Of a DNA stretch of 62,718 nt, positions 22,200 through 62,718 are shown piece after piece. The position numbers were made by a program, and so were the translations under genes. This stretch comes from Calothrix sp. HK-06 (lineage in GTDB: Bacteria; Cyanobacteriota; Cyanobacteriia; Cyanobacteriales; Nostocaceae). Position 1 is the stretch's first letter, and every line of letters begins with the position of its first letter. The stretch is from contig NZ_MRCD01000049.1 in assembly GCF_001904745.1 (NCBI RefSeq), positions 1-62,718 of the forward strand, read 5' to 3'. The notes under the pieces were generated by a model, which worked only from the letters and a program-made list of their open reading frames with translations, was not told the origin of the DNA and did not search any database.

Positions 22200-22442
22200 T
22201 AATTTAGGTTTTTTCGGCGCCTATTTTATGAATGATAAAAAATTATATTCGCGACTTTTTAGGACTAGCAAAAAAATCTTGCCATTCTAAATTGGGATGC
22301 TCCCCTTCTATCTGGGCATGAGATAAGTTCATATTTTACTCGTTTGTAGCTGAAGGGGTGATAAAGGCGCCAACATCCCTTAAGTGTCCAAAAGCTATTA
22401 GTTCATTTAGAGTAAGAATTATTCACCCCAAGAGATGCGCTA

Positions 22443-27118: not shown

Positions 27119-27130
27119 AATTAAATAGTA

Positions 27131-27254: not shown

Positions 27255-27263
27255 TTAGGTTTC

Positions 27264-42818: not shown

Positions 42819-42899
42819 TTGACATTTTGCACCTTCCACTTTTATAGAGTGTAGGTAAGCAGTGCCCACCATACGATTAAATATTAAGAGGTAGAAATC

Positions 42900-45906: not shown

Positions 45907-45958
45907 CACCCTCCTACCTCTCCCTTCCCTAAGAGGGAAGGGGGTCGGGGGGTTAGGT
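45871..45958. repeat. Dispersed C/G-rich palindromic repeat cluster
   Basis: Two adjacent imperfect hairpins: one built on CCCCTCTCCTTGTAGGAGAGGGG, the other on CTCCCTTCCCTAAGAGGGAAGG. Elements of this type are widespread between genes of filamentous cyanobacteria. This one begins inside the trpC reading frame and supplies its last residues. It could make an mRNA hairpin between trpC and trpA. Confidence 0.85.
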
Positions 45959-45982
45959 AATGTAAATTTATTGTAGAAAGCC

Positions 45983-46786: not shown

Positions 46787-46818
46787 CTGTAATTAAGCTG
46801 TAATTAAAAGGAGAAACC

Positions 46819-48057
46819 ATGTTATTAGATATACAGAACAAAAGAAACCAGCTACCTGATGCTTTTGGTCGCTTTGGTGAATTTGGTGGCAAATTTGTGC
46901 CTGAAACATTGATGCCTGCATTAAGCGAGTTAGAAGCGGCATTTCACAAGTATCGCGATGATACTGATTTTCAAACGGAATTGCAAGGTCTTTTACGCGA
47001 CTACGTAGGACGCGCCACTCCTCTTTACTTCGCCGAACGGTTAACTCAACACTACGCTCAACCAGATGGCTCTGGATTGCAAATTTATTTAAAGCGCGAG
47101 GACTTAAATCATACTGGCGCCCATAAAATTAATAATGCTTTAGGTCAGGTATTACTGGCTAAACGCATGGGTAAGCAGCGAATTATAGCTGAAACCGGAG
47201 CAGGGCAACATGGTGTGGCAACTGCGACAGTTTGCGCGCGTTTTGGTTTGGAGTGCATTATTTATATGGGCGTTCACGACATGGAGAGGCAAGCTTTAAA
47301 TGTGTTTAGGATGAGATTAATGGGGGCAGAAGTTCGACCTGTAGCAGCAGGAACAGGAACGCTGAAAGATGCTACTTCTGAAGCAATTCGGGATTGGGTG
47401 ACAAATGTAGAAACAACTCATTATATTCTTGGTTCTGTTGCAGGTCCTCATCCTTACCCAATGATAGTACGCGAGTTTCAAGCGATAATTGGCAAGGAAG
47501 CGCGCGTTCAGTGTCAAGAGAAATGGGGGGGATTACCAGATATACTACTTGCTTGCGTTGGTGGTGGTTCTAATGCAATTGGGCTTTGGCATGAGTTTGT
47601 AAATGAGCCATCTGTAAGTTTAATTGGTATCGAAGCAGCAGGTGAAGGAATTGATACTGATAAACACGCTGCTACTTTAACACTTGGACGTGTCGGTGTT
47701 TTGCACGGCGCCCTTAGTTATTTGTTACAAGATGACGATGGTCAGATTATTGAAGCACACTCTATTAGCGCTGGTTTAGATTATCCAGGTGTTGGACCAG
47801 AGCATAGTTACTTGAAAAAATTGGGACGCGCGCGATACTACAGTATTACTGATGCAGAAGCATTAGCTGCATTTAAAAAGTTATCACAACTTGAAGGTAT
47901 TATTCCTGCACTTGAGACATCTCACGCAATTGCTTTCTTATCCAAGCTTGCAACAAAAATTGTTGGTAGTCCGCGAGTTGTGATTTGCTGTTCTGGACGC
48001 GGTGATAAGGATGTGCAGACGGTCGCAACGAATAAATTAGTTACTGACCCTGCATAA
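46819..48057 (+). CDS. trpB: Tryptophan synthase beta subunit
   Basis: PLP enzyme joining indole and serine to give tryptophan. The 412-residue chain has the N-terminal [19 protein letters not shown], the PLP-binding Lys in HTGAHKINN, the Glu in [11 protein letters not shown], the phosphate-binding [10 protein letters not shown], and the C-terminal CCSGRGDKD. The ribosome site AAGGAG is the strongest in the operon. It is the last trp gene here; trpD (phosphoribosyltransferase) and trpF are not in this window, so the pathway must borrow those steps from elsewhere in the genome. An inverted repeat follows 48 bases after the stop. Confidence 0.96.
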
Positions 48058-48274: not shown

Positions 48275-49912
48275 ATGTCAATAAACCTGTTTGTAGAAAA
48301 CAAATTTCGGCGCCTATCGTTGAATAGTTGTCTTGCATTCTCTTTGTTATTCCTCAGTGCTTACCCAGCGAGTGCAGAAGAAATAGTTTCTTCTGACCCC
48401 GAACCGATGAATCAGGTAACAAATGTTAATCAACTTAGCGATGTTCAACCGACTGATTGGGCATTTCAAGCTTTACAGTCGCTAGTAGAAAGGTATGGTT
48501 GTATTGCTGGATATCCGAATTCAACTTTCCGTGGGTCGCGGGCAATGACTCGCTATGAGTTTGCAGCAGGTCTTAATGCTTGCTTAGATAGGATTAATGA
48601 ATTAATTGCAACTGCAACTGCTGATGCAGTCAAAAAAGATGATTTAGTAAATTTGCAGAAATTACAAGAGAGTTTTGCTACTGAATTGGCAACAGTACGC
48701 GGTCGAGTCGATACTTTAGAAGTCAAAACGGCCGAACTCGAAGCTAATCAGTTTTCTACAACTACTAAGCTGCAAGGTCAAGTGATAATTTCTGCTACCG
48801 CTGGTGGTTTTAGTGGTGACAGGATAGTTGATGCAACAGGTCGGGCAATTACTCGACAACCCAATGCAACAGTCGTGTATCGAGCTGGGGTAGATTTAAA
48901 TACTAGTTTTAGTGGAACTGACTTACTCAAGGTTCGCCTTGAACAAGGAAGCGGTTTTGACGAAAACGGTCAACCAGCTGGTGGAAAAGACAATACTGCT
49001 GGTTTACTTGAACCATTTTTTGGCAGCGCGCTTGATTACTCGATTAATCCTCCTACAAATAATATATTGGAGATATCAAGACTTTATTACTCTTTTGCTC
49101 CTATCAAAGACTTGAATGTTGCGGTTGGTCCAGTTATTCGCGCCGCTGATTACTTGGACTTTAACAGGTATGCTAAACTAAGCTTTCGCGACTTTAGTAC
49201 TCAAGCATTTTCAAATAACTATGTTCTGTTTCTAATAAATATTCCCAGTGGGGGAGCGGTAGTTGAATGGAAACCTAGCGGAGGAACATTTGCTGTACGA
49301 GGAGTTTATACTGCAGCAAATGTTTCCAACCCAGGAAATACTGGGGCATCTGTTGGCACTGCACGATTCCTTGATATTTTATATGCTAATGATTTTAGAC
49401 CCGGTATTGGAGGAGGTCCTCCGAGTCCTCGTGGTTCGAGAGGTTTATTTGGAGATAGCTATCAAGGTATGGTGGAAGTAGAATATAACCCCTCGCGCAA
49501 TTTTGCCATGCGTTTACAATATGCAGGTGGCGAAATATTTGATAGACGTTTTGATGCGATTGGGGCAAACGTTGAACTTACTCTCGGAAAACTTGGTATT
49601 TTTGGACGTTACGGTTTCGGTAGCTATACTGACACGGTGTTTGGTGATGTTAAACCTAATTATTGGATGGCAGGTGCTAGCGTGCGGGATTTGTTCGTAC
49701 AAGGTGCTATAGCAGGAGTTGCCGTTGGTCAGCCATTCATCGCTAACGAAATTGGCGATTCTACTCAAACTAATTATGAAGCATTTTATAACTATCCATT
49801 TAGTAGAAATGTTCAAATTACACCCGTGCTTCAAGTTATAGACCATGCTGGCAATCAGGGAAGTAATGGGATGATTTATTCAGGTTCACTTCGTACAGTC
49901 TTTTCTTTTTGA
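48275..49912 (+). CDS. SLH-domain outer-membrane porin (cyanobacterial iron-uptake-type / OprB-like)
   Basis: A 545-residue outer-membrane protein. A signal peptide (LAFSLLFLSAYPASA) is followed by one S-layer-homology domain (about 45-110; DVQPTDWAFQALQSLVERYG, AMTRYEFAAGLNACLDRI) that anchors to the cell wall. A short coiled coil (about 115-165, VRGRVDTLEVKTAELEA) and a beta-barrel ending in an aromatic residue (RTVFSF) follow. This is the common cyanobacterial porin type, often annotated as iron uptake porin. Its place between the tryptophan operon and the tryptophan-derived product cluster could make it the outer-membrane route for the product or simply a neighbour. A strong bidirectional terminator lies 49 bases downstream. 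Confidence 0.9.
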   Translation: MSINLFVENKFRRLSLNSCLAFSLLFLSAYPASAEEIVSSDPEPMNQVTNVNQLSDVQPTDWAFQALQSLVERYGCIAGYPNSTFRGSRAMTRYEFAAGLNACLDRINELIATATADAVKKDDLVNLQKLQESFATELATVRGRVDTLEVKTAELEANQFSTTTKLQGQVIISATAGGFSGDRIVDATGRAITRQPNATVVYRAGVDLNTSFSGTDLLKVRLEQGSGFDENGQPAGGKDNTAGLLEPFFGSALDYSINPPTNNILEISRLYYSFAPIKDLNVAVGPVIRAADYLDFNRYAKLSFRDFSTQAFSNNYVLFLINIPSGGAVVEWKPSGGTFAVRGVYTAANVSNPGNTGASVGTARFLDILYANDFRPGIGGGPPSPRGSRGLFGDSYQGMVEVEYNPSRNFAMRLQYAGGEIFDRRFDAIGANVELTLGKLGIFGRYGFGSYTDTVFGDVKPNYWMAGASVRDLFVQGAIAGVAVGQPFIANEIGDSTQTNYEAFYNYPFSRNVQITPVLQVIDHAGNQGSNGMIYSGSLRTVFSF

Positions 49913-49960: not shown

Positions 49961-49998
49961 AAAAATCCCCGTCACATAAAAAGTGGCGGGGATTTTTT
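49961..49998. terminator. Bidirectional intrinsic terminator
   Basis: AAAAATCCCCGTCAC and GTGGCGGGGATTTTTT form a GC-rich stem with one bulge, flanked by A- and T-runs. It therefore works for the porin gene on the plus strand and the Ser/Thr-kinase gene on the minus strand. It overlaps the last two bases of the kinase stop region. Confidence 0.92.
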
Positions 49999-51430
49999 AG
50001 TCGGTAATTTTTAATTTATAAATGCGTTCTTTAAATTGTTGCGCCCGTTCTTGATTTGGAATTTCAGCTACCAAATTTTCTATCAATTGGTTTGGACTTG
50101 AATGCGGGGATTGAGCTAAAGCTTTTTCGAGAAGAACACTAGCAATAGGTCCAATAAAACTAGTTAATTCTCGTCGGCAATTGTTTAGGAAGTCTGGATT
50201 GCTAATTGCTGGAAAGTCTACTGTTGGTTGCGAATCAAATAAATTTTGCAGTTTTTCTATATTTGTTTTTTCCGGAAGTTTAACTCGGCTTCTAAATTCA
50301 TGCGCGCGTATACGGTTAGGTATCTTTGCTGATACTGCATCCAAAAGTTCTTCTGCTGTCATTTGTGGAGATTTTGCTAAATTATGTTTTATCAAAACGC
50401 TCGCAAATGGTCCAATAAAACTCGTTAACTCTTGCTGTAAGTAATCTAAATATTCTGTGCTGAGAGAAATAGGCGCCTGGGGATGTAATCTTGTCGGCGC
50501 CTGATTTTCTGATTGAACTTCAAACAATTCTATTGGTTGCGGTTCACCAATTGTTACTTTACTAGTTGTTACTTTACTATGGATGGCATTAAGTTCAAAA
50601 ATAACTTCTTGGGCTGATTGATAACGTTCGGTTGGTACTTCTGCTAGCATTTTGTTTAGGATGTTAGCAAAAGAATCACTAGTTTTAGCATAAGAACGCC
50701 ATTGCCAGTTTAGCGAGTCATCTAGTAATGAATTTGGCATTCTCCCAGTTAAAAGCACAATAGCACAAACAGCTAGTGCATAAATATCACTGTTAGGATA
50801 ACATTTTCCTAAGCGTAACTGTTCGGGTGGTGAATAACCAATTTTTCCTACAACCGAACCAGACAAAGAAAAATTATTATGTGCGGCATTTGCAGATAAT
50901 AGCTGCGTAAATTTCTGTTTAACTACTCCAAAATCAATCAATACAGGTTGCGATTGATTTTGCGGTAGCATAATATTATCAAGCGAAATATCGCGGTGAA
51001 TTATACTGCGGTCATGGAGATAATTTAGTATGGGTAATATTTTTAACAACCATGTTTTAACTTCGACCTCGGAAAATGGTTTGCGTGTCTGGGTCAGACG
51101 TTCCTGTAAAATTTGTGAGTAACTTTTACCGTTAATATATTCCTGTACAATAAATAATCGCTCTCTATTAGTTATCCAAGCTAAAAACTTGGGAATATGA
51201 GGATGATCTAATTCGTATAAAACTTTAGCTTCTCTCTCGAATAATTCCCTTGATTTACGTATAAGCTCCGTGTTTGTGGTTGCAGGTAAAAACTCTTTTA
51301 ATACACATTGTTCATCGAAACGCTGTGTATCAGTAGCTAAATATGTTCGTCCAAACCCGCCTTGTCCAAGAGTTCGATTAATTAGATAACGATTGTTGAT
51401 TAAAGTCCCTGGATTTATCTCTGGTATCAT
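49997..51430 (-). CDS. Ser/Thr protein kinase with duplicated C-terminal domain
   Basis: A 477-residue cytoplasmic Hanks-type kinase. The kinase domain (about 12-270) has LGQGGFGRTYLA, the Lys in CVLKEFL, IHRDISLDNIML and VLIDFGVVKQ. The C-terminal third contains two copies of a domain of about 55 residues, both with ELTSFIGP-x-ASVL followed by a PN-x-x-RA-x-x-F segment (about 330-400 and 415-477). No membrane helix is visible. I prefer ATG 51430 (MIPEINPGT) over an in-frame TTG at 51478. It is the last gene of the minus-strand cluster, immediately downstream of the MFS-FHA fusion, and so is a candidate to phosphorylate a partner read by that FHA domain (inference). Confidence 0.92.
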   Translation of the reverse strand: MIPEINPGTLINNRYLINRTLGQGGFGRTYLATDTQRFDEQCVLKEFLPATTNTELIRKSRELFEREAKVLYELDHPHIPKFLAWITNRERLFIVQEYINGKSYSQILQERLTQTRKPFSEVEVKTWLLKILPILNYLHDRSIIHRDISLDNIMLPQNQSQPVLIDFGVVKQKFTQLLSANAAHNNFSLSGSVVGKIGYSPPEQLRLGKCYPNSDIYALAVCAIVLLTGRMPNSLLDDSLNWQWRSYAKTSDSFANILNKMLAEVPTERYQSAQEVIFELNAIHSKVTTSKVTIGEPQPIELFEVQSENQAPTRLHPQAPISLSTEYLDYLQQELTSFIGPFASVLIKHNLAKSPQMTAEELLDAVSAKIPNRIRAHEFRSRVKLPEKTNIEKLQNLFDSQPTVDFPAISNPDFLNNCRRELTSFIGPIASVLLEKALAQSPHSSPNQLIENLVAEIPNQERAQQFKERIYKLKITD

Positions 51431-51494
51431 TGTGCTTGTGTTGACTATAACTTCACTACATTTAGTTATACAGCTCAAAATTTATAAATATGCA

Positions 51495-51595
51495 TGGTAA
51501 TAGAATCCCCCCAACAAGAACGCGAGTTCGGGGGGTTAAGAGGCAAGCTAAATTCCCCCCCTTATTAAGGGGGGGATCAAATTCGGGGGATTAAT
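51495..51595. repeat. Dispersed C/G-rich palindromes between kinase and MFS genes
   Basis: The gap contains a CCCCCCAAC...GTTCGGGGGG hairpin and CCCCCCCTTATTAAGGGGGG (starting 51555), the latter also found at 30257. The elements lie directly after the MFS stop and may weaken read-through into the kinase gene. Confidence 0.8.
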
Positions 51596-51597
51596 AT

Positions 51598-53280
51598 TTA
51601 TGATATATCAAACATAAATGTCATCATATCTTTCCGACCGAGTGAGAAGCAAAGACCCGGTTTTAGCTTATACCAAACTCCTGGGAGTGTTGGGTATTTA
51701 TTTATGAAAACACCGTTAGAACTTCTTAAATCTTGAATATAGTAATCATTTCCATCAAAGCGTATTTGAGCGTGCATACGCGAGACAACGTGAGAATTCG
51801 GGAAATCAGAAGTATCAATATCCACAGGAATTTTACCATTGCGTTTGCCAATAGTAATTACATCGAACTCTTCTGGTAGTTCAATTGTTTGATTGGTTTG
51901 CATGTGGATAAGTTGTGCAGTTGGGTGTTGTAAGATTGTCGGTGATGCTGTTAGTTCTTCAATATCTGGCGCCGGGATATGAGTTGGTGCTTCGGTATGT
52001 GGTGGTGCTTCGGTATGTGGTGGCGCCGAACCCCTATGTGATGGTGCCGATATATGTATAGTTTTTGCGGTAAAGCTAAATACTTTAGTAGTAAGAAAAT
52101 AATTGAAGACAGCAAATGAAATTAGCGAGAAAACGACGCTGCTGAAAAATACTGATTGTATTCCCCAATATTTTAATGCAACACTTCCGAGAAATGGACC
52201 GAGTGTTTGTCCCAATGATACAAAAGTTAGATTAACTGCAGTAAATCCACCGCGAGATTCAGAGGCGGCAAGTCCTGCCAGGAATGACTGTGAAGTAGGA
52301 AGCGACAAACCCTGAGCAGCACCCAACAGTAACATCGGGATAAATAGCAACCAAAAGTTGGAAATAAAGGGTAAAATTAAAAGCGCGCAGGCAAATAATA
52401 AAAAAGAGAGTTTGATTAGTTTAATTTCTGAGATATTTTGCTCTAATAGTTCAAGTTGGGAAGCAACAACCGCAAGGGAAATTGACATACTAGCCAGAAT
52501 TAAACCATTTTGCGCGTCTGATGTCTGAAACCTTTGTACTGCAAAAAATGGAATATAAGTTAAGCAGACATTTAGCAGTAAAAATAAGGACATTACGGCA
52601 AATAACAATCCAATTACCGGGCGATTGTTAATGCTTTTCCAAGTACCTTGTAAGTAAGGTTTTAATTTGAATTTCTCGGTACGATGTTGTTTTGGCAGCC
52701 TTAGTGTTGTTATTATTAATAGCGTTAGCGGAACGGCAAGCAAAGCAAGTAAAAATGTATACCGCCAGTTATATCCACCTATTACCCCACCAATCAGAGG
52801 AAATATTACCCCGCTAATACCAATCAAGCTAGCATTAAAAGCCATCGCCTTACCTAGGGTTCTGCCACGGTAAAGGTCACCGATAAGGGTGACTTGTAGC
52901 GGTTCTAAACTAGCGGCGCCAACACCTTGTAATAATCGCCATCCTAAATGGTTTGCAAAGATAGATGTCAACCCACTCAAGGCGCCGCCAGCAGCAAATA
53001 ATAATAGTGAAGGAATTATGATTATTTTTCTACCAAAAATATCAGCTAATATTCCAATTACTGGAGTAATAATAGCACTGGGTAACTGAAAAATAGTCGA
53101 TATCAAAGAAGCTTCGTCGGCAGAAATATTAAAAGCATGTTGGATAGTAGGTAAAACTGGATTATAAAGCGTTCCTCCTAAAACCCCCATCAATGTAATA
53201 AAATTAATAATATAGAAGTTTTTATCATTAAAGATGTTAGTTTTACTTTTTGGTATGCTTCCGGTATTGGGTGGGTTCAT
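51598..53280 (-). CDS. MFS transporter fused to a C-terminal FHA domain
   Basis: A 560-residue protein. Residues about 20-400 are a 12-helix drug/H+-antiporter-type MFS transporter (MGVLGGTLYNPVLPTIQ, GILADIFGRK motif A, WRLLQGVGAASLEP). A Pro/His-rich linker (about 405-440; repeated PPHTEA, from an 18-bp tandem DNA repeat at 51985-52020) leads to a forkhead-associated domain (about 460-560; ITIGKR, SHVVSRMHAQIRF, DLRSSNGVFIN). FHA domains bind phosphothreonine, so export could be coupled to kinase signalling; a Ser/Thr kinase gene follows. By position it is the likely exporter of the cluster product. MFS-FHA fusions are not an architecture I know as characterised. Confidence 0.92.
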   Translation of the reverse strand: MNPPNTGSIPKSKTNIFNDKNFYIINFITLMGVLGGTLYNPVLPTIQHAFNISADEASLISTIFQLPSAIITPVIGILADIFGRKIIIIPSLLLFAAGGALSGLTSIFANHLGWRLLQGVGAASLEPLQVTLIGDLYRGRTLGKAMAFNASLIGISGVIFPLIGGVIGGYNWRYTFLLALLAVPLTLLIITTLRLPKQHRTEKFKLKPYLQGTWKSINNRPVIGLLFAVMSLFLLLNVCLTYIPFFAVQRFQTSDAQNGLILASMSISLAVVASQLELLEQNISEIKLIKLSFLLFACALLILPFISNFWLLFIPMLLLGAAQGLSLPTSQSFLAGLAASESRGGFTAVNLTFVSLGQTLGPFLGSVALKYWGIQSVFFSSVVFSLISFAVFNYFLTTKVFSFTAKTIHISAPSHRGSAPPHTEAPPHTEAPTHIPAPDIEELTASPTILQHPTAQLIHMQTNQTIELPEEFDVITIGKRNGKIPVDIDTSDFPNSHVVSRMHAQIRFDGNDYYIQDLRSSNGVFINKYPTLPGVWYKLKPGLCFSLGRKDMMTFMFDIS

Positions 53281-53333
53281 GATGTTGATTTCGGATTGAT
53301 TAATAGGTTTGATAGATTTAGAGTCTTGTGGAA

Positions 53334-53391
53334 GGGCATAGAAAGCCCGTCATATATATAGGGGGCATAGAAAGCCCGTCATATATATAAG
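53334..53391. repeat. Two direct copies of a 29-bp repeat
   Basis: The unit GGGCATAGAAAGCCCGTCAT plus ATATATA occurs at 53334 and again at 53363, offset 29 bases. Each copy contains a small GGGC...GCCC hairpin. It lies in the leader of the MFS gene, between it and the small peptidoglycan-binding gene. Confidence 0.85.
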
Positions 53392-53443
53392 GGGGTAGGC
53401 GGGGACGCCCACTCCACTTTTATGCCCACCCCTAATCTAGTGT

Positions 53444-53668
53444 TTAACCTTGTGATAAAGCCTTTCCTAACGCTTGTCCAGTTTGGCGCCCAACTACTCC
53501 ATCAGTACTTAGGTTGTTATCTTGCTGAAACTTGATAACAGCTTGTTCAGTGTTTGCACCAAAATCACCGTCAATTGCTCCAACGCTGTATCCTAATCTT
53601 GTTAAATCTCCTTGTAGCTTTTGTACATCTGCACCATTGGCGCCGCGTTGTAATGTTGGTGGGTTCAT
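53444..53668 (-). CDS. Small peptidoglycan-binding (PG_binding_1) domain protein
   Basis: A 74-residue protein made of almost nothing but one PG_binding_1 domain: LQRGANGADVQKLQGDLTRL, GYSVGAIDGDFGANTEQAV, IKFQQDNNLSTDGVVG. There is no signal peptide and no catalytic domain, which is unusual; such domains normally target cell-wall hydrolases. The ribosome site AGGAG precedes the ATG. It shares the first four residues (MNPP) and some surrounding DNA with the start of the MFS-FHA gene. It lies inside the natural-product cluster between a P450 gene and the MFS gene. Its role there is unknown. Confidence 0.85.
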   Translation of the reverse strand: MNPPTLQRGANGADVQKLQGDLTRLGYSVGAIDGDFGANTEQAVIKFQQDNNLSTDGVVGRQTGQALGKALSQG

Positions 53669-53740
53669 GATTTGTGACTCCTGTCATTAATATAGTTGAT
53701 ATAGATTAATAGTGGTGAGATTTTGAGAATATGCAATTCC

Positions 53741-54991
53741 TTATCCCCATTCCACAAATAACTGACTAAAGCCGCGAAATATAATTGTGGGAATATGTGT
53801 GAATTCTTGATTTGGGCAAAGCCGTAAGTTTGGCAATCTTTGAGACAATAACTCTAAAGCAATGCGCGCTTCTTTTCGAGCTAAGTTAGAACCGATACAG
53901 TGATGGATTCCGTGACCAAATGCCAGATGGTTTGGTGTAGTATGCGCGAAACGCTCTATATCTAACTCGTTCGCATTGTTGTATTTAGCTTCGTCGCGAT
54001 TAGCAGAACCGTACATTAAAAAGATACGAGTATTTGCTGGTAAAGTAATTCCAGCTAGCTCAACTTCCTGGGTAGTTGTACGACTCATCGAAGAAACCGG
54101 AGCGTCATACCGAAGAGCCTCTTCAACTACATGGGGAATTAGTGATGGATTGTTGCAGATAGCTTGCCATAAATGCGGATGTTCTAATAAGTGCTTTACA
54201 GCATTGCCAATCAAATGTGAACTAGTTTTATGTCCAGCTTGGATTAACCCACATAAAATCCGCACGCAGTAAGGCATACTTAAGTCAGAGGTGGCTATGG
54301 TACTTATTAAATCATCTTTATTTTGAGGCGCCTTCCGTTGTTCTTCAATTAAACTCGCAACATAATGTTGCATTGCGACAAAACTATGAGCGCATTTAAC
54401 TTGTTCGGATGGTGGCAATGGTGAAAAAATCAAAGCATTCATGTCATAGCACCATCCTTTGATATCAGCCATCTTATCTGTCGCGATACCGTACATGGTT
54501 AAAATAGCTTCTAAGGGTAGAGGATGAGCAAATTGTGAAATAATATCGGTTTTACCGTCATTAATAAAAGCGTCGATTAACCGATTGGATATTGCGTAAA
54601 TATCACTTTCAACTGCTTCGAGCTTTTCGAGTGAAAATGCTTTTAGAAACGGCGCCCGTAAGCGTTGATGTTCTTCACCATCGCTATTTACCAAGTCACG
54701 CACTAAAGGAAAACCTTGACGAAATACTTGATATACTTCTGGAGTAAACTCAACAATTGGACTTAAGGTATCGGTTGAAGAAAAGCGCACGTGGTCTTTA
54801 AGAACAGCAAGAATATCATCGTAACGAGTTAACACATACCCATTTAGTAATGGGCTATAAAAAAGTGGTTCCTCAACTCTGGCACGTTCATAAAATGAAT
54901 AAGGGTTTTCAAGTTGTGAGGTAAAAGGTTGAAATTCCTTTCCCAAATGAGGACACTTAATGCTAGGTTGTGTTGAATGTTCTGTAGTCAT
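53741..54991 (-). CDS. Cytochrome P450 with atypical I-helix
   Basis: A 416-residue soluble bacterial P450 (CYP107-like class). The haem-binding loop FGHGIHHCIGSNLARKEA has Cys365 as axial ligand, and the K-helix ExxR is EEALR. The I-helix reads LIQAGHKTSSHL: the Glu/Asp normally before the catalytic Thr (AGHETT in the other P450 of this cluster) is replaced by Lys. That residue usually helps proton delivery and oxygen activation, so the enzyme may run a less common reaction, such as radical coupling or C-N bond formation rather than simple hydroxylation (inference). It lies 33 bases downstream of a small VOC gene on the same strand. Redox partners are not in the window. Confidence 0.92.
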   Translation of the reverse strand: MTTEHSTQPSIKCPHLGKEFQPFTSQLENPYSFYERARVEEPLFYSPLLNGYVLTRYDDILAVLKDHVRFSSTDTLSPIVEFTPEVYQVFRQGFPLVRDLVNSDGEEHQRLRAPFLKAFSLEKLEAVESDIYAISNRLIDAFINDGKTDIISQFAHPLPLEAILTMYGIATDKMADIKGWCYDMNALIFSPLPPSEQVKCAHSFVAMQHYVASLIEEQRKAPQNKDDLISTIATSDLSMPYCVRILCGLIQAGHKTSSHLIGNAVKHLLEHPHLWQAICNNPSLIPHVVEEALRYDAPVSSMSRTTTQEVELAGITLPANTRIFLMYGSANRDEAKYNNANELDIERFAHTTPNHLAFGHGIHHCIGSNLARKEARIALELLSQRLPNLRLCPNQEFTHIPTIIFRGFSQLFVEWG

Positions 54992-55024
54992 AGTTTGTTT
55001 GGGATTAATTAACTTTAGTACTGG

Positions 55025-55396
55025 TTACTCTTGACAATCAATAGTAAATGGGTTGCCTTCTGTATCAACTCCTTCAGCAATTTTCACTCCAGGGGAAGGA
55101 CAACGAATTGGACTTAGCTTTAAACCGCGAAGCGTCAAAGTCTGATGCGCGCTTTCAATATCGCTGACGCTAAATGCAAGTTTTGGTCTATCTTTACCAA
55201 TTTGCGTTTCTAAATTGCCATGCAATACTAAAGTACATTCACCTGTAAAAAACTCTACCCATTGTTTATCTTTACGCCCATCTATACAGAGCTTATTTTT
55301 TACAGTTAAACCCAATTTACCCTGATAAAATTCTGTTTGCTTGTCAATATCTTTGACGTAAAGTATCGTCTTTGTTAAGCCTTGGATAATGCTCAT
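55025..55396 (-). CDS. Small VOC-family (glyoxalase/bleomycin-resistance type) protein
   Basis: A 123-residue single-domain VOC protein: TKTILYVKDIDKQTEFYQGK, LGLTVKN, and a C-terminal VDTEGNPFTIDCQE. Members are metal enzymes or ligand-sequestering self-protection proteins. It sits tightly between the two P450 genes (gaps of 33 and 24 bases), so it belongs to the same transcript. It may act on a pathway intermediate or give self-resistance. The metal ligands cannot be assigned with confidence: the usual first-strand His is replaced by Lys or Thr, so binding without catalysis is possible. Confidence 0.85.
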   Translation of the reverse strand: MSIIQGLTKTILYVKDIDKQTEFYQGKLGLTVKNKLCIDGRKDKQWVEFFTGECTLVLHGNLETQIGKDRPKLAFSVSDIESAHQTLTLRGLKLSPIRCPSPGVKIAEGVDTEGNPFTIDCQE

Positions 55397-55420
55397 ATGT
55401 GTGATTTGTTACTAATGTTG

Positions 55421-56659
55421 CTAGGGTTTTCTGAAACCAACTGTTAATTTTTTTGGTCCATGAAAAATGATATTATTTGCCCACTTAATGTTGTCTTCTA
55501 GCAAATGCAATTCGGGTAAACGGTTAAGCAAAACGTTTAAAGCGATTTGACCTTCCGCGCGCGCTAAAGAAGCACCGAGACAATAGTGAATACCACCACC
55601 AAAACCGCAACTTTTAGTATCTTCACGCTGAATATCAAATACTTCTGGATTTTGATAGCGGGCGGGGTCGCGGTTAGCAGAACCAAGCATGATACCTACA
55701 CTATCTCCACGCTTTATTTGTTGACCACCAATTTCAATATCAGCATATGCCCAGCGTGTAATCATTTGGATAGGGGTATCGTAACGAATCATTTCTTCGA
55801 TAGCATTAGGCATATATTCAGGATGAGAACGCAATAGTTTAAATTGCTCAGGGTTGCGAAGTAATGCAAGTGTTCCTTTAGCTATCAAATTAACTGTGGT
55901 TTCATGTCCCGCTGTTAATAAGTGGGTACAGGTTGCTACGATTTCTTCATCGGTAAGTTTATCTCCTTCATCCGCAGCTTTGACCAAATTAGAAATTAAA
56001 TCATCTTTGGGATTATTTCGTCGGTCTGTAATTATCGGCTTAAAGTAGTTGATAAACTCTTGACTAGCTTTTTCTGCGTTTTCGTAAACTGCTGGTGGTG
56101 GTTTTAACCGTGATGCACTCGCATATTGTAAAGCTAATGCCCATTTGCGGAATAATGGGTGGTCATTGGGGTCGGCGCCTAGCATCATTGCGATTACCAT
56201 TATTGGTAAGCGAAAAGCATATTCCTCAACTAAGTCCATTTCCCCGCGCGCATGAACATTATCTAATAAACTATCTGCGATTTGGTAAACACAAGGACGT
56301 AAGTTTTCAACAACTCTCGGTGTAAAAGCTTTACTAACTAACGATTTTAAGCGTGTGTGGTCGGGTGGTTCACGGAAAACAATCCACTTACTGACCATTG
56401 TCAAGAAAGTAGTATACGCTGTCGGTACTGGTGTCGTTTCTACATCTTCGCGTTTGAGAGATTCGCGTCCAAATCTACGGTCTTCCAAAACTTGCATAAC
56501 ATCTTCATAGCGGAAAACGTACCAGGCGCCTTCTAATTGTGGATTGGAAGACACCCCCCAATGCACTGGGTCTTCTGCTCGATAGCGACGGTAATGAGTG
56601 TAAGGGTCTGAAATAAATTCCTGAACGAATGGGTTTAATCTTTGAATTGTTGTAGACAT
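55421..56659 (-). CDS. Cytochrome P450, StaP/RebP-like
   Basis: A 412-residue P450. The haem loop is FGGGIHYCLGASLARAE with Cys360; the I-helix LLTAGHETTVN and K-helix EEMIRYD are canonical. From remembered StaP sequence it shares unusual stretches beyond general P450 motifs: DPYxxYRRYR near the start, RWAYxDI, LGSANRDPAR, and an FHGP-x-x-L C-terminal strand. StaP/RebP convert chromopyrrolic acid to the indolocarbazole core by aryl-aryl coupling and oxidative decarboxylation. The neighbouring VioB/StaD-family gene supplies exactly that type of substrate, so the role is likely, though sequence memory is not a search. It is transcribed with the GST and VOC genes. Confidence 0.9.
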   Translation of the reverse strand: MSTTIQRLNPFVQEFISDPYTHYRRYRAEDPVHWGVSSNPQLEGAWYVFRYEDVMQVLEDRRFGRESLKREDVETTPVPTAYTTFLTMVSKWIVFREPPDHTRLKSLVSKAFTPRVVENLRPCVYQIADSLLDNVHARGEMDLVEEYAFRLPIMVIAMMLGADPNDHPLFRKWALALQYASASRLKPPPAVYENAEKASQEFINYFKPIITDRRNNPKDDLISNLVKAADEGDKLTDEEIVATCTHLLTAGHETTVNLIAKGTLALLRNPEQFKLLRSHPEYMPNAIEEMIRYDTPIQMITRWAYADIEIGGQQIKRGDSVGIMLGSANRDPARYQNPEVFDIQREDTKSCGFGGGIHYCLGASLARAEGQIALNVLLNRLPELHLLEDNIKWANNIIFHGPKKLTVGFRKP

Positions 56660-56711
56660 TATATGTTACCTGCTAAATTTTATAATCTGGGGTGTAGCAC
56701 AGGCTATAAGC

Positions 56712-57374
56712 TTATGCAACGAGTTCCAACGGATACTCCAACTTAGAGAGCATCTGTGTCATTTGTTCGTATCCGGAGTGGAAAATTTGTACTATAGATG
56801 GTCGGGACTCTAAACGTTTGACATAATTTGTCAAATTAGGTAAATGCTCGTAGCTATAAACCATACGCAAATAGGCTAAAGTCGGAGCCGCAGCGCAATC
56901 TGCTAACGAAAATTCATCTACAAGCCAGGTACGTTTTGCGAGTCGCTCATCAAGTAATGCTAATGCTGTCTCCATTAATCTACGTGCTTTGACAACATTC
57001 CCGGCGCCTCGCATGGACGGAGTGCGTTGAGTGTCACTAAATAATGCTTCGCGTCCAGTGTTGATGTAAACATCAATAATTCGCTCCAGCATCTGTGTTT
57101 CTAAAGCTTTTTCTGGATTCACAGGAATAAGCTGTGGTACATTTTGATACGTTTTATCCAGGTATTCGATGATGATGTTAGCTTCAAATAATACTGTTCC
57201 ATCATCAGTAACTAAGGTAGGTACTTTGCCAAAAGGGTTGATTTTTAAATAGTTTTGGCGTACCTCTGGGTCAAAAAGGTTAACTTGGATAGGTGTAAAA
57301 TTAACCTGTTTTTCATAAAGAGCTATCAGAACTCTTTGCGAATAGGATGAGGCTGGGGCATAGTAAAGCTTCAT
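56712..57374 (-). CDS. Glutathione S-transferase-like protein
   Basis: A 220-residue two-domain GST. The thioredoxin-like N-terminal domain (1-80) has LYYAPASSYSQRVLIALYEK, the cis-Pro motif NPFGKVPTLV and the glutathione-contacting FEANIIIEYLD. An all-helical C-terminal domain follows with the N-capping box SLADCAAAP. It could conjugate or isomerise a reactive pathway intermediate or protect the cell. Its position between the VioB-like and StaP-like genes on the same strand suggests a pathway role. GSTs are not part of the classical staurosporine, rebeccamycin or violacein gene sets known to me. Confidence 0.9.
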   Translation of the reverse strand: MKLYYAPASSYSQRVLIALYEKQVNFTPIQVNLFDPEVRQNYLKINPFGKVPTLVTDDGTVLFEANIIIEYLDKTYQNVPQLIPVNPEKALETQMLERIIDVYINTGREALFSDTQRTPSMRGAGNVVKARRLMETALALLDERLAKRTWLVDEFSLADCAAAPTLAYLRMVYSYEHLPNLTNYVKRLESRPSIVQIFHSGYEQMTQMLSKLEYPLELVA

Positions 57375-57487
57375 ATTACAATCGCGGTATCACTCTTAAA
57401 GTATCTAGGGGTGGGAAAAAAGAATTATGCAACGTCGGGTTTTTGTGTGATGTGTTTGCTCTCTGAACTTTTCACGGTAATTTCTAA

Positions 57488-60400
57488 TTAATGTAATAAA
57501 GATTGAGGAGATAAAGCCAAATCATTAAAAAACTTGGTATAAAACTCGAACATTTCACAGACTGTGTTTGGCACAACTTCGTATTCTCTTGCTTTATCTC
57601 TTAATTGCTCAAATCGGCGCGATATTGTAGTCATTGCGACCTCTGGCGTAGAAATATAAGTAGGTGTAGCAATTTCAAACGATGGTCCAGCAGTTTTACC
57701 ACGTTTACCCGAAGGCAAACTCATTAATAACTCACCTAAAGGACGCATCATACCTGTCATTACATCAATGCCAGCATTCATTAATTTGGAACGTCTTAAA
57801 CTACCAGTTGGCGCCATTCCAAAATGCTGTACCATTAACTGCATCATCAGAAAATAAGTTTCGTTAAATATTTCCATGACTGCACGAGTTTCAGGTACTG
57901 TCACAACATTGCTGCTGTAATCTCGGTGGTATAACGAAGGATTTCGTAATGCTGGGTAAGAAGGATTCCACGGGACTTGGTGTCCTGTTTCTGGGTCAGA
58001 CATTTGTTCGCAAGCGAGCGAGTCAGCCAAGCGACGGAATTTTTGATAGTGGGAACGCTCGAATGAAGGTGATTGTTTGTTGGCGCCTTCTCCTTGTTCG
58101 GTTATTAAGTCTACAGCAAAGAGCGCGCTGTTTAAATCATCGACTTGTAATTGGTAATCTGGGTGCGCTCGATTAAAATCATCACGCATAAATAAACGAT
58201 GTTCGCCACCAGTAGAACCTTTTTTAACAACAAATAAATCTGGAATATTTTGCAGTGCTTCGCGGATTTGGCGGTATAGTTCGCTTAAAGAACCATAATT
58301 ATGTAAGCGGTCAGCAGTGAAGTCTTTTAATACAGGTTCGTTAGCTAAATTTGATTCTAAAAAGTCGGGCATTTCTAAATGCATAAACCGCTGTAAAGAT
58401 GATGCATTCAATGGTTCGAGTGCGAAATCTACATCGATTGGGAAGCGCGCGTTTAGTGTACTCCAATTAGGTACTGCTGGGTAAAAGGGTTCACCAATTG
58501 CCATCAATATATTATTGACCATCAAAAAGTGTATCATTTCCTCGCGAGAAACTTCGAGTAAGACTCCCCGCATCCCGTAATTATGTACTTCTTTACCATC
58601 ACCGCAAGCTAATTGTAGTTGTTGAGGAGTCCATAAACCCCGACGTACATATTCTTCCCCAGTCACGTAATTAGGTACTGAATATCCTGCATAAATATAT
58701 TGCAGCATCACAGTTACTTCCAATTCCGCTGCATGTCGCAGTGCTGTTACTAATTCTGCACGATTTTGAATACTGCGTTGAATTTGTTTAGGTTCGCTGT
58801 TAACAGGTGGAACGTAACCAACTTGCTGTTGATTTTGCAAGAATTTACGTAATAAATTTGTTTTTGGTTGTGACATATCACGACTAGGAGGCATATAATA
58901 AGTTTTGTATTTATTTTTTGGGTCAGACATTTGCCACATCAAGCGTGCGTAAGTTTCGACTTTACACTGGTCAGCGAGACTAAAAACATCGACCTTCATG
59001 AATGAAAAGCTAAATTCATAGAATGCAAGAACGTGTTTGTAAATAAGATCAAAATCTACAGCTTCTCTTGGAATATCTTCTAAATACCAATCATTCCCTA
59101 ACACACGCACGGCAAAGAAACCAGCACCAGCCCAATAATTGAGATTATCATCGTTATCATAAGCAACTTCCGCATCATCAACTAATTCATCGGGGTTGAC
59201 GGTAAGTAAAACTTTTGCACTACCTGACTTGGCGCCACGTATTGTCACCCAACCACGTCCGTTTGAGTCGGTGGAAATTTTACCCAAAGGAACAAACTCC
59301 GCTTTTTCGCACAGGACACCAGGTTTAAAATGTACAATCGGCATCGACGAACTGGGTGGAAACTCAAAAGTCTTCCCGGCATTTTCTGCAAAGTTTTCAA
59401 ACTCATATTTCAATTGAGGAAAAGCTTTGGGGTTATAAAACTGACGTAAATAAACATCAACCTTTGCAGGGCGCCCTCTAACAAAAGACCGCACCTCTAA
59501 CTCAACAGCATGGTCAAGACCATGTTTCCGATTAGGATGTTCAATAAATAAACAACCATCATCTATCTGAAGATTGATTTCTTGTTCTTGAACGAGAATT
59601 TGCGGTTGTTTATTTGCATCATATGCAACAATACATAACCCCTCATCTTCTATCTGGGCGCCCAACTCACATGGAATAGGAACATCTATTATTCCACTTG
59701 TTAAACTATGCGCTTCAAGCTGATACGCTTGTTTCGGTATAAGCGCGATTAATGTTTGACTCTTAATTGTACGCAATTCTAAATCACCCAAATCAAGCTT
59801 AGAAGTAATCGGGTGAATAGGGCCTTTTTCTGGTTTGGCAGCACGTCCAACACCAGGTACAGCCGTAATCATGTTTAAACTGACACCTTGGGGAGTAACT
59901 TGAAGCGTCAAATTAGAAAGTGACTTTTGAGATTTATCAAGATGACAAGGAGTGAGTAACCGACCGTGAGGATAAGTACGAAGTTCGTCTTTACACCACA
60001 ACCCAATCGTTCCGTGCAGTTCCCAAAAACTTGGTAAGTCAGGTTGAACTGGTGCAGACATATTACTAATACTAAATTGCACCACCAACCCCAGCACATC
60101 ATCACGGCCCATTGCTTGTTGTAACATTGATACCGTAGGAGATTGAGCGACATCACCCCACAAAAAATCTTCGGCATCTTTGGGTATTGCAAACTGATAA
60201 ACAGCAGCGCGCTGAAATTGTTTATTCAAACAGTGTTGAGGTAAATTATGCAGATGATTAAAATCTTGCCAGCGCGCTAACTGCATACCTGTAATAGGAG
60301 CAGAAACCATATACGGAACTTCATGCGAACCTCCTTGTCTTCCAAAACTTAGCTGACCTAACATAATTGTGTCAGTCCAATTTGATGCCGGGTCACATTC

Positions 60401-60805
60401 AAAAAAGCGCGCGCGGTTAAAAGTTGTTTTGACGTAATCATTATAATGACCCCACAAGTCAACACTGCGTCCCACCACTGGGTCAAGAGGGTCAACTTCT
60501 CCAAACGCGCGTTGAGTGCTGATTATTTGTGCTTCGATAGAGAAATGACCATTTCCGCCAAAATTCCAACCCGTAGCCATACTAAAGGCGCCGTTTTCAT
60601 CGTATTGTCCCTGAGAATTGAAGCGAGGACCCAAATTATAAAGATATTCGTGGTATTCAGATGAAGGTAAACTACTATCAACAGGTTTACCATTCATATA
60701 AACAGTGTTGCTACTGACATCAACATTTCCATATTTATGTCCCGTAGGAGCATGAATACGCGCAAAACCCTGGAAATGCAGACGGGGAAAATCTAAAATA
60801 CTCAT
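57488..60805 (-). CDS. VioB/RebD/StaD-family enzyme (chromopyrrolate synthase / IPA-imine dimer synthase type)
   Basis: A 1105-residue enzyme of the family that dimerises indole-3-pyruvate imine. RebD and StaD give chromopyrrolic acid; VioB gives the violacein precursor. It starts with the family signature MSILDFPRLHFQGFARI. It keeps LWGHYNDYxxTTFNRAR, FSISNMSAPVQP, VFSLADQCKVETYARLMWQM and YYMPPSR. The ferritin-like iron domain (about 680-850) has ELEVTVMLQYIYAGYSVPNY and REEMIHFLMVNNIL. The C-terminal GSLRRSKLMNAGIDVMTG also matches. Length is closest to StaD-type members. It is the first gene of the minus-strand cluster and is divergent from a VioA/StaO-like oxidase. Since StaP-like P450s follow, the indolocarbazole branch is more likely than violacein. 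Confidence 0.95.
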   Translation of the reverse strand: MSILDFPRLHFQGFARIHAPTGHKYGNVDVSSNTVYMNGKPVDSSLPSSEYHEYLYNLGPRFNSQGQYDENGAFSMATGWNFGGNGHFSIEAQIISTQRAFGEVDPLDPVVGRSVDLWGHYNDYVKTTFNRARFFECDPASNWTDTIMLGQLSFGRQGGSHEVPYMVSAPITGMQLARWQDFNHLHNLPQHCLNKQFQRAAVYQFAIPKDAEDFLWGDVAQSPTVSMLQQAMGRDDVLGLVVQFSISNMSAPVQPDLPSFWELHGTIGLWCKDELRTYPHGRLLTPCHLDKSQKSLSNLTLQVTPQGVSLNMITAVPGVGRAAKPEKGPIHPITSKLDLGDLELRTIKSQTLIALIPKQAYQLEAHSLTSGIIDVPIPCELGAQIEDEGLCIVAYDANKQPQILVQEQEINLQIDDGCLFIEHPNRKHGLDHAVELEVRSFVRGRPAKVDVYLRQFYNPKAFPQLKYEFENFAENAGKTFEFPPSSSMPIVHFKPGVLCEKAEFVPLGKISTDSNGRGWVTIRGAKSGSAKVLLTVNPDELVDDAEVAYDNDDNLNYWAGAGFFAVRVLGNDWYLEDIPREAVDFDLIYKHVLAFYEFSFSFMKVDVFSLADQCKVETYARLMWQMSDPKNKYKTYYMPPSRDMSQPKTNLLRKFLQNQQQVGYVPPVNSEPKQIQRSIQNRAELVTALRHAAELEVTVMLQYIYAGYSVPNYVTGEEYVRRGLWTPQQLQLACGDGKEVHNYGMRGVLLEVSREEMIHFLMVNNILMAIGEPFYPAVPNWSTLNARFPIDVDFALEPLNASSLQRFMHLEMPDFLESNLANEPVLKDFTADRLHNYGSLSELYRQIREALQNIPDLFVVKKGSTGGEHRLFMRDDFNRAHPDYQLQVDDLNSALFAVDLITEQGEGANKQSPSFERSHYQKFRRLADSLACEQMSDPETGHQVPWNPSYPALRNPSLYHRDYSSNVVTVPETRAVMEIFNETYFLMMQLMVQHFGMAPTGSLRRSKLMNAGIDVMTGMMRPLGELLMSLPSGKRGKTAGPSFEIATPTYISTPEVAMTTISRRFEQLRDKAREYEVVPNTVCEMFEFYTKFFNDLALSPQSLLH

Positions 60806-60880
60806 TTTAAGAAAATCACAATCTGGTTATACAAATAGATAGGGGACACAAATATAGTTTATGCAAATAAAGCAATCGTA

Positions 60881-61385
60881 GCGCCCTTACCCCCTATAAG
60901 GGCGTGACCCCACAACAACTCAAATTTTTTACACCTACTTCAAACAACTTGGCGTGGGTTTTACTGGTATTTAATCACACATCACAACACGTTGGCTTTA
61001 AGGTAGTACCAAGGTAATGTTTACCTCAAAACAATACTTGTTATGACGGTATGATTTTACTGTGGTACGAAATGATAAAAACCAAGAGCTTTGTAACAAT
61101 TATTTTCACTTCTCTATAGTATTAAGTGGCGCCCTTACCCCCTATAAGGGCGTGACCCCACAACAACTCAAATTTTTTACACCTACTCCAAACAACTTGG
61201 CGTGGGTTTTACTGATATTTAATTACACACCAAAACACGTTGGCTTTAAGGTAGTACCAAGGTAATGTTTACCTCAAAACAATATTTGTTATGACGGTAC
61301 GATTTTACTGTGGTACGGAATGATAACAACCAAGAGCTTCGTAACAATTATTTTCACTTCTCCATAGTATTAAGTGGCGCCCTTC
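60881..61385. repeat. 248-bp tandem duplication in the divergent promoter region
   Basis: A 248-bp unit occurs at 60881-61128 and again at 61129-61376, nearly identical, with the first eight bases of a third copy (gcgccctt) at 61377. Each unit starts with the hairpin CGCCCTTA...TAAGGGCG. It lies between the VioB-like gene and the divergent amine-oxidase gene, so any promoter or operator within the unit is duplicated. The rest of the 723-bp gap (60806-60880 and 61386-61528) shows no gene. Confidence 0.93.
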
Positions 61386-61528
61386 AAAATGCATAAATCA
61401 AAATTCTTATCTGTAGATAAAAGTATAAGCAGTTGTGAGGCTAAGAGTTTAAACACACTCTTTATCTTCGCTACTTCAAACACAAAAATGTTAAAAACTC
61501 AAGAACATTATTTAAGAGGTATCAAATC

Positions 61529-62718
61529 ATGGACACCAAATTTATGCTGGAAATGGCGCAATTCGCAAACTTTGAACCCGGTAAAAAAATTACAATATTA
61601 GGAGCAGGAATCGCTGGATTAGTTGCTGCAAGAGAATTAGAGCGCATGGGACATGAAGTCGATATTATGGAAGCAAGTCCACGCATAGGTGGCAGAGTTT
61701 GGACACATCGCTTCAGCTTAGAACCAGATGCACCCTATGCAGAGTTAGGAGCAATGCGTATCCCCAGTTCCCACCAACATACATTACATTATATTAAAGA
61801 AATGGGTTTAAGCAATAAACTCTGCAAGTTTATGACAGTATTTGAAGAAGAAAACGCTTTTATGAATATGGAAGGAAACCTCTTCCGGATGAAAGATGCC
61901 ATTAATTTCTTCAGCACTCGCTACCCAGAAATCTTTACATCAAGCTACAGCCAACAAACAAAACTTTTCGCAGCATGGCTAAAAACAATTGTTAATACCA
62001 TTTCCCCCGGAAGCTTACGTGAAAGTTTAGACCAAGATTTACGCTCACATTTGATGGACGAATTGGAACGCCTAGACTTAACGCCATATTTTAACGAAAG
62101 GAGCGAAACTATCAACCTACAAAAATTCGTTCAAGAAAATCCTGGTTTCCGCGCGCGTTGCAGTAAAGCATTAGATACATTCCTTGGCGACATCGTAACA
62201 GAAACCAGCCATGATTTGCTACAAATTAAAGGTGGTACACAACTTTTAATTGACCGCTTGGTAGAATCAGTTAAGGCGCCAATCAAATGTAACCAACCAG
62301 TAGTAGCAATCCGTGTTCGCTCTAACTATACAGAAATTGACTACTTAGAAAATGGACAAAAACAAACCCGTCGTTGCGACTATGTACTTTGCACAATTCC
62401 TTTCTCTGTAATGAGAAAAATGGAATTAGAAGGATTTGATAGCCGAAAAATTGAATCTATCAACAACACAGTATACTGTCCTGCAACAAAAGTAGCTTTT
62501 CATACTAAAGAAAACTTTTGGGCATCCCAAGGAATTAAAGGTGGAGCATCATTTAGCGGCGCCGGAGTTCGTCAAACCTACTACCCCAGTATAAAATTTA
62601 ATCCAGAACGCGGTAGTGTAATGTTAGCAAGCTACACAATAGGTGATGATGCAGACCGTTTAGGCAACATGACCGAACAACAACGTCACAGCTATGTAAA
62701 AGAAGTAGTCAGTAACGT
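61529..62718 (+). CDS. Flavin amine oxidase, VioA/RebO/StaO-like (partial)
   Basis: FAD-dependent L-amino-acid oxidase; the first 396 codons are in the window and the 3' end is cut. The N-terminal Rossmann motif ITILGAGIAGLVAARELERM (about 17-36) and the GGRVWTHRF motif are clear. AELGAMRIP, IKGGTQLLIDRL and the VLCTIPFSVMRKM stretch fit the monoamine-oxidase-like fold shared with tryptophan oxidases. In rebeccamycin, staurosporine and violacein pathways such an enzyme oxidises tryptophan to the indole-3-pyruvate imine used by the RebD/StaD/VioB enzyme, whose homologue lies divergently next door. The start at 61529 has AGAGG nine bases upstream. Chlorinated or other tryptophan analogues cannot be excluded as substrates. 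Confidence 0.92.
   Translation, partial: MDTKFMLEMAQFANFEPGKKITILGAGIAGLVAARELERMGHEVDIMEASPRIGGRVWTHRFSLEPDAPYAELGAMRIPSSHQHTLHYIKEMGLSNKLCKFMTVFEEENAFMNMEGNLFRMKDAINFFSTRYPEIFTSSYSQQTKLFAAWLKTIVNTISPGSLRESLDQDLRSHLMDELERLDLTPYFNERSETINLQKFVQENPGFRARCSKALDTFLGDIVTETSHDLLQIKGGTQLLIDRLVESVKAPIKCNQPVVAIRVRSNYTEIDYLENGQKQTRRCDYVLCTIPFSVMRKMELEGFDSRKIESINNTVYCPATKVAFHTKENFWASQGIKGGASFSGAGVRQTYYPSIKFNPERGSVMLASYTIGDDADRLGNMTEQQRHSYVKEVVSN

Follow-up and report, generated by a model that had tools for sequence, protein, structure and literature searches.

The stretch of DNA analysed here (the window, 62,718 nt) is one complete contig (C188) of the 9.99-Mb, 243-contig assembly of Calothrix sp. HK-06, and with good probability it encodes a cyanobacterial indolocarbazole pathway that is devoid of RebC and has a linked tryptophan (trp) operon. 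In such pathways a RebO-type oxidase makes indole-3-pyruvate imine, an enzyme of the VioB/RebD family couples two of these and chromopyrrolic acid forms, a StaP-type cytochrome P450 couples the indoles and decarboxylates chromopyrrolic acid, and RebC or StaC, the enzymes deciding which indolocarbazole is made, set the final oxidation state, a mixture being formed without them. The initial annotation had proposed a chromopyrrolic-acid-type entry pair and a StaP/RebP-type P450 in a cyanobacterium, and the gene identities argue for this. All genes that it named are found, at the positions of Table 1, by profile matches of the window proteins, and a chance origin of the cluster is excluded by E-values and synteny.

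Core enzymes and the missing flavoenzyme

The product of 57488-60805, expected to belong to the VioB/RebD/StaD family, does so by its match to the NCBIfam profile for VioB (TIGR04492, E 2.5e-286; it also matches Pfam Ferritin-like PF12902), by its full length and by its place in two trees, and it keeps all 177 of the 177 VioB columns with at least 97% conservation across 78 other rows. The genome has no second copy of its gene. A scan across named genomes yielded 132 relatives, of which the best 80 were retained: 34 cyanobacterial loci (from fewer genomes, with Calothrix PCC 7103, Anabaena azotica and Mastigocoleus testarum contributing two each), 44 actinobacterial and two Oxalobacteraceae loci. 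Both trees are quick ones, supported by the Shimodaira-Hasegawa-like approximate likelihood-ratio test (SH-aLRT) only and carrying long-branch warnings. In the first, of 81 rows, the cyanobacterial, actinobacterial and Oxalobacteraceae groups each form one side of a branch, the cyanobacterial clade lies beside an actinobacterial clade holding the Salinispora and Lentzea loci, and the window protein sits with those of Calothrix PCC 7716, PCC 7103 and a second PCC 7103 locus; by this tree and the scan, PCC 7716 and PCC 7103 are the nearest named relatives of the strain. The second tree (25 of the 81 rows of the first plus 11 others, taken from L029-L036 and L041 and including four ferritin-only homologues and the split VioB-like protein of genome G387) places the ferritin-only homologues outside with support 99, and the front half of the G387 protein with Oxalobacteraceae VioB with support 96. 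A grouping with non-bisindole ferritin-like proteins was looked for, and the window protein falls instead with cyanobacterial and actinobacterial RebD/StaD-type enzymes. Across the order, 11 of 388 genomes gave a match; six have VioB-like proteins or sizeable pieces of them, and the other five give a fragment of 100 residues in one case and matches to the ferritin domain at 27-31% in four. No relative was found in viral contigs.

The P450 at 55421-56659 (P450a), flagged from the outset as StaP/RebP-like, finds its best match among solved structures in 2z3t (378.6 bits, the runner-up scoring 321.7), an entry titled only 'Cytochrome P450' which we take to be StaP. In a quick tree of 82 P450s it shares one clade (99) with those adjoining actinobacterial RebD/StaD homologues, apart from the second P450 (P450b) and other P450s of the same loci; by analogy it is predicted to carry out the aryl-aryl coupling and decarboxylation of chromopyrrolic acid. 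Profile matches likewise bear out P450b, the VOC protein, the glutathione S-transferase (GST) and the exporter. The best structural matches of P450b are presumably CYP116-type haem domains; its kind occurs in 9 of the 34 cyanobacterial loci, and another P450 family (F13) in 6, including PCC 7716 and PCC 7103. The divergent VioA/RebO/StaO-like oxidase starting at 61529 is also there, as a PF01593 protein that is RebO-type by similarity: it is 44% and 40% identical to the Lentzea and Salinispora oxidases beside RebD/StaD homologues, and has no match in the two Oxalobacteraceae loci.

What is missing is a RebC/StaC-type flavoenzyme. PCC 7716 and PCC 7103 carry a RebC-like gene between those of the VioB-like enzyme and the GST, and in a relative (L038) the RebC-like protein aligns with RebC (2r0c) along its entire length, scoring 621 bits. 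The PCC 7716 interval that holds the gene (L045 13324-15103) is replaced in the window by a few tens of base pairs (Table 1), and a search of the whole genome found nothing above 33%, the positive control PCC 7716 giving 78%. A deletion of about 1.8 kb has removed the gene in the lineage of the window. It had been remarked that VioC/D/E- or StaC-type enzymes are not seen; they are indeed absent here, but a StaC/RebC-type enzyme is normal in relatives and has been lost in this lineage. Among 19 P450a-bearing cyanobacterial loci, 12 have a RebC-like gene in the locus and seven have none; searches of the seven whole genomes (E 1e-30) found one in a single case (78%) and nothing above 33% in the other six, so the RebC-less state recurs, although absence is weaker evidence in two of the six (L050 and L053), which are metagenome-assembled genomes. 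One locus without P450a (L066) has a RebC-like gene elsewhere in the same genome (77%).

The remaining genes are under purifying selection. All reading frames of the cluster are open, and the ratio of nonsynonymous to synonymous substitution rates (dN/dS) is 0.07-0.27 against the Calothrix relatives; against PCC 7716 and PCC 7103 it is 0.13-0.14 for the VioB-like gene (0.13-0.17 across comparisons), 0.11-0.12 for P450a, 0.09-0.11 for VOC, 0.26 for GST and 0.27 for MFS.

The cluster was at first delimited as 49997-62718. As a cluster it is real, but its left border should be moved out to the trp operon: DAHP synthase (DAHPS), TrpEG, TrpC, TrpA and TrpB lie at 41883-48057, across a porin and a kinase from the MFS end, and the operon belongs to the region, the same arrangement being syntenic in PCC 7716 (90-95% identity). 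Trp genes are present in only 5 of the 34 cyanobacterial loci, but many of the fetched stretches, that of PCC 7716 among them, end before such genes could be reached. In three loci (L059, L073 and L075) they closely precede the oxidase, a TrpD-type gene (PF00591, PF02885) intervening, and in L057 they are downstream of the cluster. The genome has two other close TrpB copies, a lone one (C216, 80%) and one on C235 (83%), where a second trp operon lies beside EboA, EboC, EboE and prephenate dehydrogenase, which we take to be scytonemin-cluster surroundings. A linked trp operon may help genome mining for clusters of this sort.

We infer every chemical step from earlier work on the Reb, Sta and Vio enzymes, and the roles of P450b, GST, VOC and exporter are likewise putative. 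The trp operon would supply tryptophan, the RebO-type oxidase would convert it to indole-3-pyruvate imine, the VioB/RebD-like enzyme would couple two imines to chromopyrrolic acid, and P450a would join the two indoles and remove the carboxylates. Since the RebC/StaC-type flavoenzyme is lost, oxidation of the last ring would then not be steered, giving a mixture unless P450b, GST or VOC took the step over, and the core would probably be arcyriaflavin/7-hydroxy-K252c-like rather than K252c alone. The MFS protein would export the product, which may differ from known indolocarbazoles. Naturally RebC-less with its partners intact, and recurring across cyanobacterial genomes, a cluster of this kind would let one ask directly how a StaP-type P450 acts unaided in nature, and whether the GST, the VOC protein or the second P450 has taken over.

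Alternative readings of the cluster

Several points weigh against a functional RebC-less indolocarbazole pathway, those on the oxidase and on substitution rates being given further below. The TIGR04492 score of the VioB-like protein (952.5 bits) is under the equivalog cut-off of 1250, actinobacterial members being unscored against this profile, and the cyanobacterial and actinobacterial proteins are joined against VioB with support 94, just below the program's star. The clade would not by itself fix the product, because VioE-linked members exist within it. Finally, 15 of the 40 actinobacterial P450-bearing loci have no RebC-like gene of at least 42% in the fetched stretch (their whole genomes being unsearched), and cyanobacteria are not alone in lacking such a gene close by.

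Of the oxidase, 396 codons lie in the window; it is incomplete, it is divergent from the VioB-like gene, where 20 of the 34 loci have the two co-directional, and PCC 7716 and PCC 7103 have no oxidase at the corresponding locus, the linkage being unstable in close relatives. For these reasons its assignment to the cluster goes by similarity. Similarity to both relatives ends at 60865, upstream of the VioB-like gene, so the juxtaposition of oxidase and VioB-like gene is particular to the window among the three Calothrix. It is conceivable, though we consider it unlikely, that the window holds a stray member of a dispersed family of amino-acid oxidases and that the pathway relies on another copy. 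The genome has four further copies in unrelated places, two full-length (C89 and C208; 506 and 508 aa), one interrupted (C165) and one 5′-truncated (C170), all with 93-97% protein identity where they match, and the missing 3′ part of the window oxidase, sought genome-wide, is present only in these four. On the other hand, an oxidase of at least 50% identity precedes the VioB-like gene in 20 of the 34 cyanobacterial loci and follows it in one (L061), and the intact copies are similar enough to serve.

Dispersed copies are found in relatives too. At E 1e-40, PCC 7716 has one, far from its VioB-like gene, which shares flavodiiron-type neighbours (named by reading) with the C170 copy; PCC 7103 has three and a divergent one (57%), two of the three lying on one contig in like surroundings; and Scytonematopsis contorta has five, one inside its cluster. 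Three co-directional copies within 9 kb are also seen in S. contorta (L143 9663-18418), on a contig other than that of its bisindole cluster. Between the intact copies of the window genome dS is 0.41-0.54 (0.30-0.44 against PCC 7716 and PCC 7103) and dN/dS 0.07-0.08, and with such divergence they appear to be old and functional rather than the outcome of a recent burst. A recent mobile element was considered for the extra copies and rejected, given dS values as high as those against the relatives, ragged repeat ends and differing neighbours. The interrupted copy on C165 (L023 8943-11285), which has after it a small membrane-type protein with 61% identity (152 aa) to a family (F6) found in 13 of the 34 cyanobacterial clusters and absent from that of the window, is perhaps a fragment of another cluster.

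It is improbable that the cluster is a decaying remnant, in which, once RebC was lost, nothing useful is made any longer and the other genes are in the course of being lost as well. The deletion itself fits such decay, as does the region upstream of the VioB-like gene, unlike that of the relatives beyond 60865. So does a further point against the functional pathway, i.e., that dN/dS is higher in window pairs than between PCC 7716 and PCC 7103 for the VioB-like gene (0.09 between these two), P450a (0.02) and MFS (0.13), although not for GST (0.28); a mild relaxation after the loss of RebC is not excluded. Yet every reading frame is intact with dN/dS far below 1, the conserved VioB columns are all kept, and the same RebC-less state is met in the six other P450a-bearing genomes.

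A tjipanazole pathway of the sort found in Symphyonema bifilamentata 97.28, leading to indolo[2,3-a]carbazoles that are chlorinated and glycosylated, deserves very little credence. The compounds are filamentous-cyanobacterial, and their published cluster (tjp) is said, in PMC12842986 and PMC8065813, to resemble the sta and reb clusters; according to the latter source it had at that time been found in no other genome. The kinship first suggested for the window is nevertheless unsupported: the eight Pfam-scanned cluster proteins include no halogenase or glycosyltransferase, no tjp locus turned up in the named-genome scan, and a halogenase motif, used without a positive control, is absent from the open reading frames (ORFs) of at least 300 aa in 37 cyanobacterial loci and from those of the window. 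A genome search with PF04820 gave two matches over the cut-off, on another contig (best 42.6 bits), and is undiagnostic for a halogenase because 5 of 14 control genomes, E. coli included, were also over it.

Least probable of all, and largely refuted, is a violacein-type (prodeoxyviolacein) pathway with the imine dimer rerouted by a VioE beyond the contig end, for although the VioB-like protein shares 87% identity with its counterpart at the second PCC 7103 locus (L061), where oxidase and VioE follow, no VioE was found in the window genome with a query that found it in the PCC 7103 genome (positive control), the neighbours are the StaP-type P450, GST and VOC of indolocarbazole-type loci, the window oxidase and the one at the VioE locus share only 56-57% identity, and VioC and VioD are absent from the cluster (the rest of the genome being unsearched for these two).

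Gene layout and related loci

Table 1. Features of the Calothrix sp. HK-06 window in and around the RebC-less cluster
Feature	Position	Strand	Remarks
DAHP synthase	41883-42818	+	first trp-operon gene; 94% and same order in PCC 7716; named by sequence reading and TrpEG adjacency
TrpE-TrpG fusion (anthranilate synthase)	42900-45095	+	94% to PCC 7716 cluster-side copy; named by sequence reading
TrpC	45052-45906	+	90% to PCC 7716 copy; named by sequence reading
TrpA	45983-46786	+	95% to PCC 7716 copy; named by sequence reading
TrpB	46819-48057	+	91% to PCC 7716 copy; named by sequence reading
SLH/OprB-type outer-membrane porin	48275-49912	+	between trp operon and cluster; named by sequence reading; pathway membership uncertain
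Ser/Thr protein kinase	49997-51478	-	PF00069; flanking, membership uncertain
MFS exporter with C-terminal FHA domain	51598-53280	-	PF07690 and PF00498
Second P450 (P450b)	53741-54991	-	best solved matches 6gii, 6ldl, 6laa
VOC/glyoxalase-fold protein	55025-55396	-	PF00903
StaP/RebP-type P450 (P450a)	55421-56659	-	best solved match 2z3t; haem motif FGGGIHYCLG
Glutathione S-transferase family protein	56712-57374	-	PF13417, PF13410
Site of missing RebC-like gene	57448-57488	.	about 41 bp against 1780 bp in PCC 7716
RebD/StaD/VioB-family enzyme, predicted chromopyrrolic acid synthase	57488-60805	-	1105 aa; TIGR04492 952.5 bits
Two tandem 248-bp units (95%)	60881-61384	.	divergent intergenic region, adjoining start of oxidase repeat
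RebO-type L-tryptophan/amino-acid oxidase, partial	61529-62716	+	PF01593; first 396 codons, then contig end (62718)

The porin has an 86% copy at the same place in PCC 7716, and likewise in PCC 7103 over the 29% that lies in the locus; the kinase is syntenic in three loci (L045, i.e., PCC 7716, L046 and L077). Rfam and tRNA scans of the window gave no matches. Elsewhere in the window, at 13975-27680, a nonribosomal peptide synthetase-like protein of 1948 aa, an ABC peptidase-exporter, an HlyD-type protein and, at 27264-27680, a small ORF resembling a precursor, all named by sequence reading, may form another metabolite locus.

Genes of the 34 cyanobacterial loci were counted within at most 10 kb, at identity thresholds set by us and dropping pieces shorter than a quarter of the query. 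GST was found in 23 loci, the oxidase in 21, the RebC-like gene in 20, the StaP-type P450 in 19, VOC and MFS in 16 each (MFS at 52% identity or more) and VioE in three, the usual order being oxidase, VioB-like, RebC-like, GST, P450a, VOC, second P450 and MFS. The 44 actinobacterial loci, some of which are short (down to 5.9 kb), have the oxidase in 43 cases, a StaP-type P450 in 40 and a RebC-like gene of at least 42% in 27; GST, VOC, DAHPS, TrpEG, TrpC, TrpA and TrpB have no match there at E 1e-8, in agreement with the early remark that the gene set differs from that of actinobacterial clusters.

Some of the cyanobacterial loci resemble violacein clusters. Nested in the VioB subclade of the window, L061 (9995-16435) is a prodeoxyviolacein-type set, with its VioB-like gene, a different oxidase (56%) and a VioE at 273.9 bits, above the cut-off. 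Two others hold violacein-type sets, with VioC, VioD and VioE beside VioB-like genes of the same clade: L059 (Nostoc flagelliforme FACHB-838, 1-20854) has trp genes, oxidase, VioB-like, VioC- and VioD-like genes (84-86% to L057) and VioE (PF18234, 310.7 bits), and L057 (Anabaena azotica FACHB-119, 9887-23336) has VioB-like, VioC (768.5 bits, cut-off 760), VioD (633.7, 620) and VioE (271.4, 177), then the trp operon, with no oxidase within the fetched 10 kb. The G387 locus (L041, 1-19765) is chimeric-looking: VioB-like in two overlapping ORFs, a VioE-like protein at 162.8 bits (below the cut-off of 177), an oxidase (41%), a ScyA-related thiamine pyrophosphate enzyme (1025.4 bits, cut-off 1000; below the cut-off of ScyA itself), a glycosyltransferase, a P450, two methyltransferases, an acyl-CoA-dehydrogenase/flavin-monooxygenase-like protein, TrpEG and DAHPS. 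No title on violacein genes in a cyanobacterium stands among the literature matches listed, although such a paper may still exist.

Other loci have different additions. L058 (Nostoc paludosum FACHB-159, 1987-13235) is an indolocarbazole-type cluster that also encodes a Rieske oxygenase and a pair of methyltransferases, and we presume that it might fit the methoxy- and N-methyl-bearing cyano-indolocarbazole of Nostoc sphaericum EX-5-1. L072 (146-10772, a metagenome-assembled genome of Pseudanabaenales, by its record outside Nostocales) has an oxidase, VioB-like in two ORFs, a P450, two methyltransferases, a glycosyltransferase and a Rieske protein, and is a candidate for a glycosylated bisindole.

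Taken together, the loci suggest a single coupling-enzyme clade common to the indolocarbazole and violacein pathways of cyanobacteria, so that the switch of output could be studied between close homologues, e.g., the window enzyme and the VioE-linked one of PCC 7103 (87%). Going further, and somewhat short of an even chance, there could be a single cyanobacterial entry module (trp operon, oxidase and VioB-like enzyme) with exchanged tails, in which a StaP-type P450 may or may not be joined by RebC, VioE may or may not come with VioC/VioD, or, in the one case of G387, VioE is paired with a ScyA-related enzyme. The window would then be the RebC-less branch, with regioselective oxidation handed to P450b, GST or VOC, and would make an undescribed indolocarbazole.

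Relation to known bisindole clusters

Indolocarbazole clusters are known as a category and, as the named-genome scan tells, their core enzymes are widespread. An indolocarbazole gene prediction has already been flagged in Chlorogloeopsis fritschii PCC 6912 (PMC11392904), the strain of locus L073. The RebC-less variant, the linked trp operon and cyanobacterial violacein-type sets do not appear among the literature matches listed.

The tjp cluster of S. bifilamentata 97.28 is likened in print to sta and reb; the scanned cluster proteins of the window include no halogenase or glycosyltransferase. With the violacein cluster (VioABCDE) the window has the VioB-family enzyme in common, but no VioE was found in its genome, a P450 stands in place of VioC/VioD, and its oxidase is unmatched in the two Oxalobacteraceae loci. 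The rebeccamycin and staurosporine clusters (RebO-RebD-RebP-RebC and StaO-StaD-StaP-StaC) are closer: oxidase, RebD/StaD-family enzyme and StaP/RebP-type P450 are common to all, orthologous by tree and neighbourhood, whilst the window has lost the RebC/StaC-type enzyme, has GST, VOC and the trp operon, and shows no glycosylation or halogenation genes among its eight scanned cluster proteins. Closest are the loci of Calothrix PCC 7716 and PCC 7103, Scytonema, Brasilonema, Nostoc and C. fritschii PCC 6912, with a similar gene set and order apart from swaps; of these, PCC 7716 and PCC 7103 differ from the window in keeping RebC, in having a different second P450 and in the position of the oxidase.

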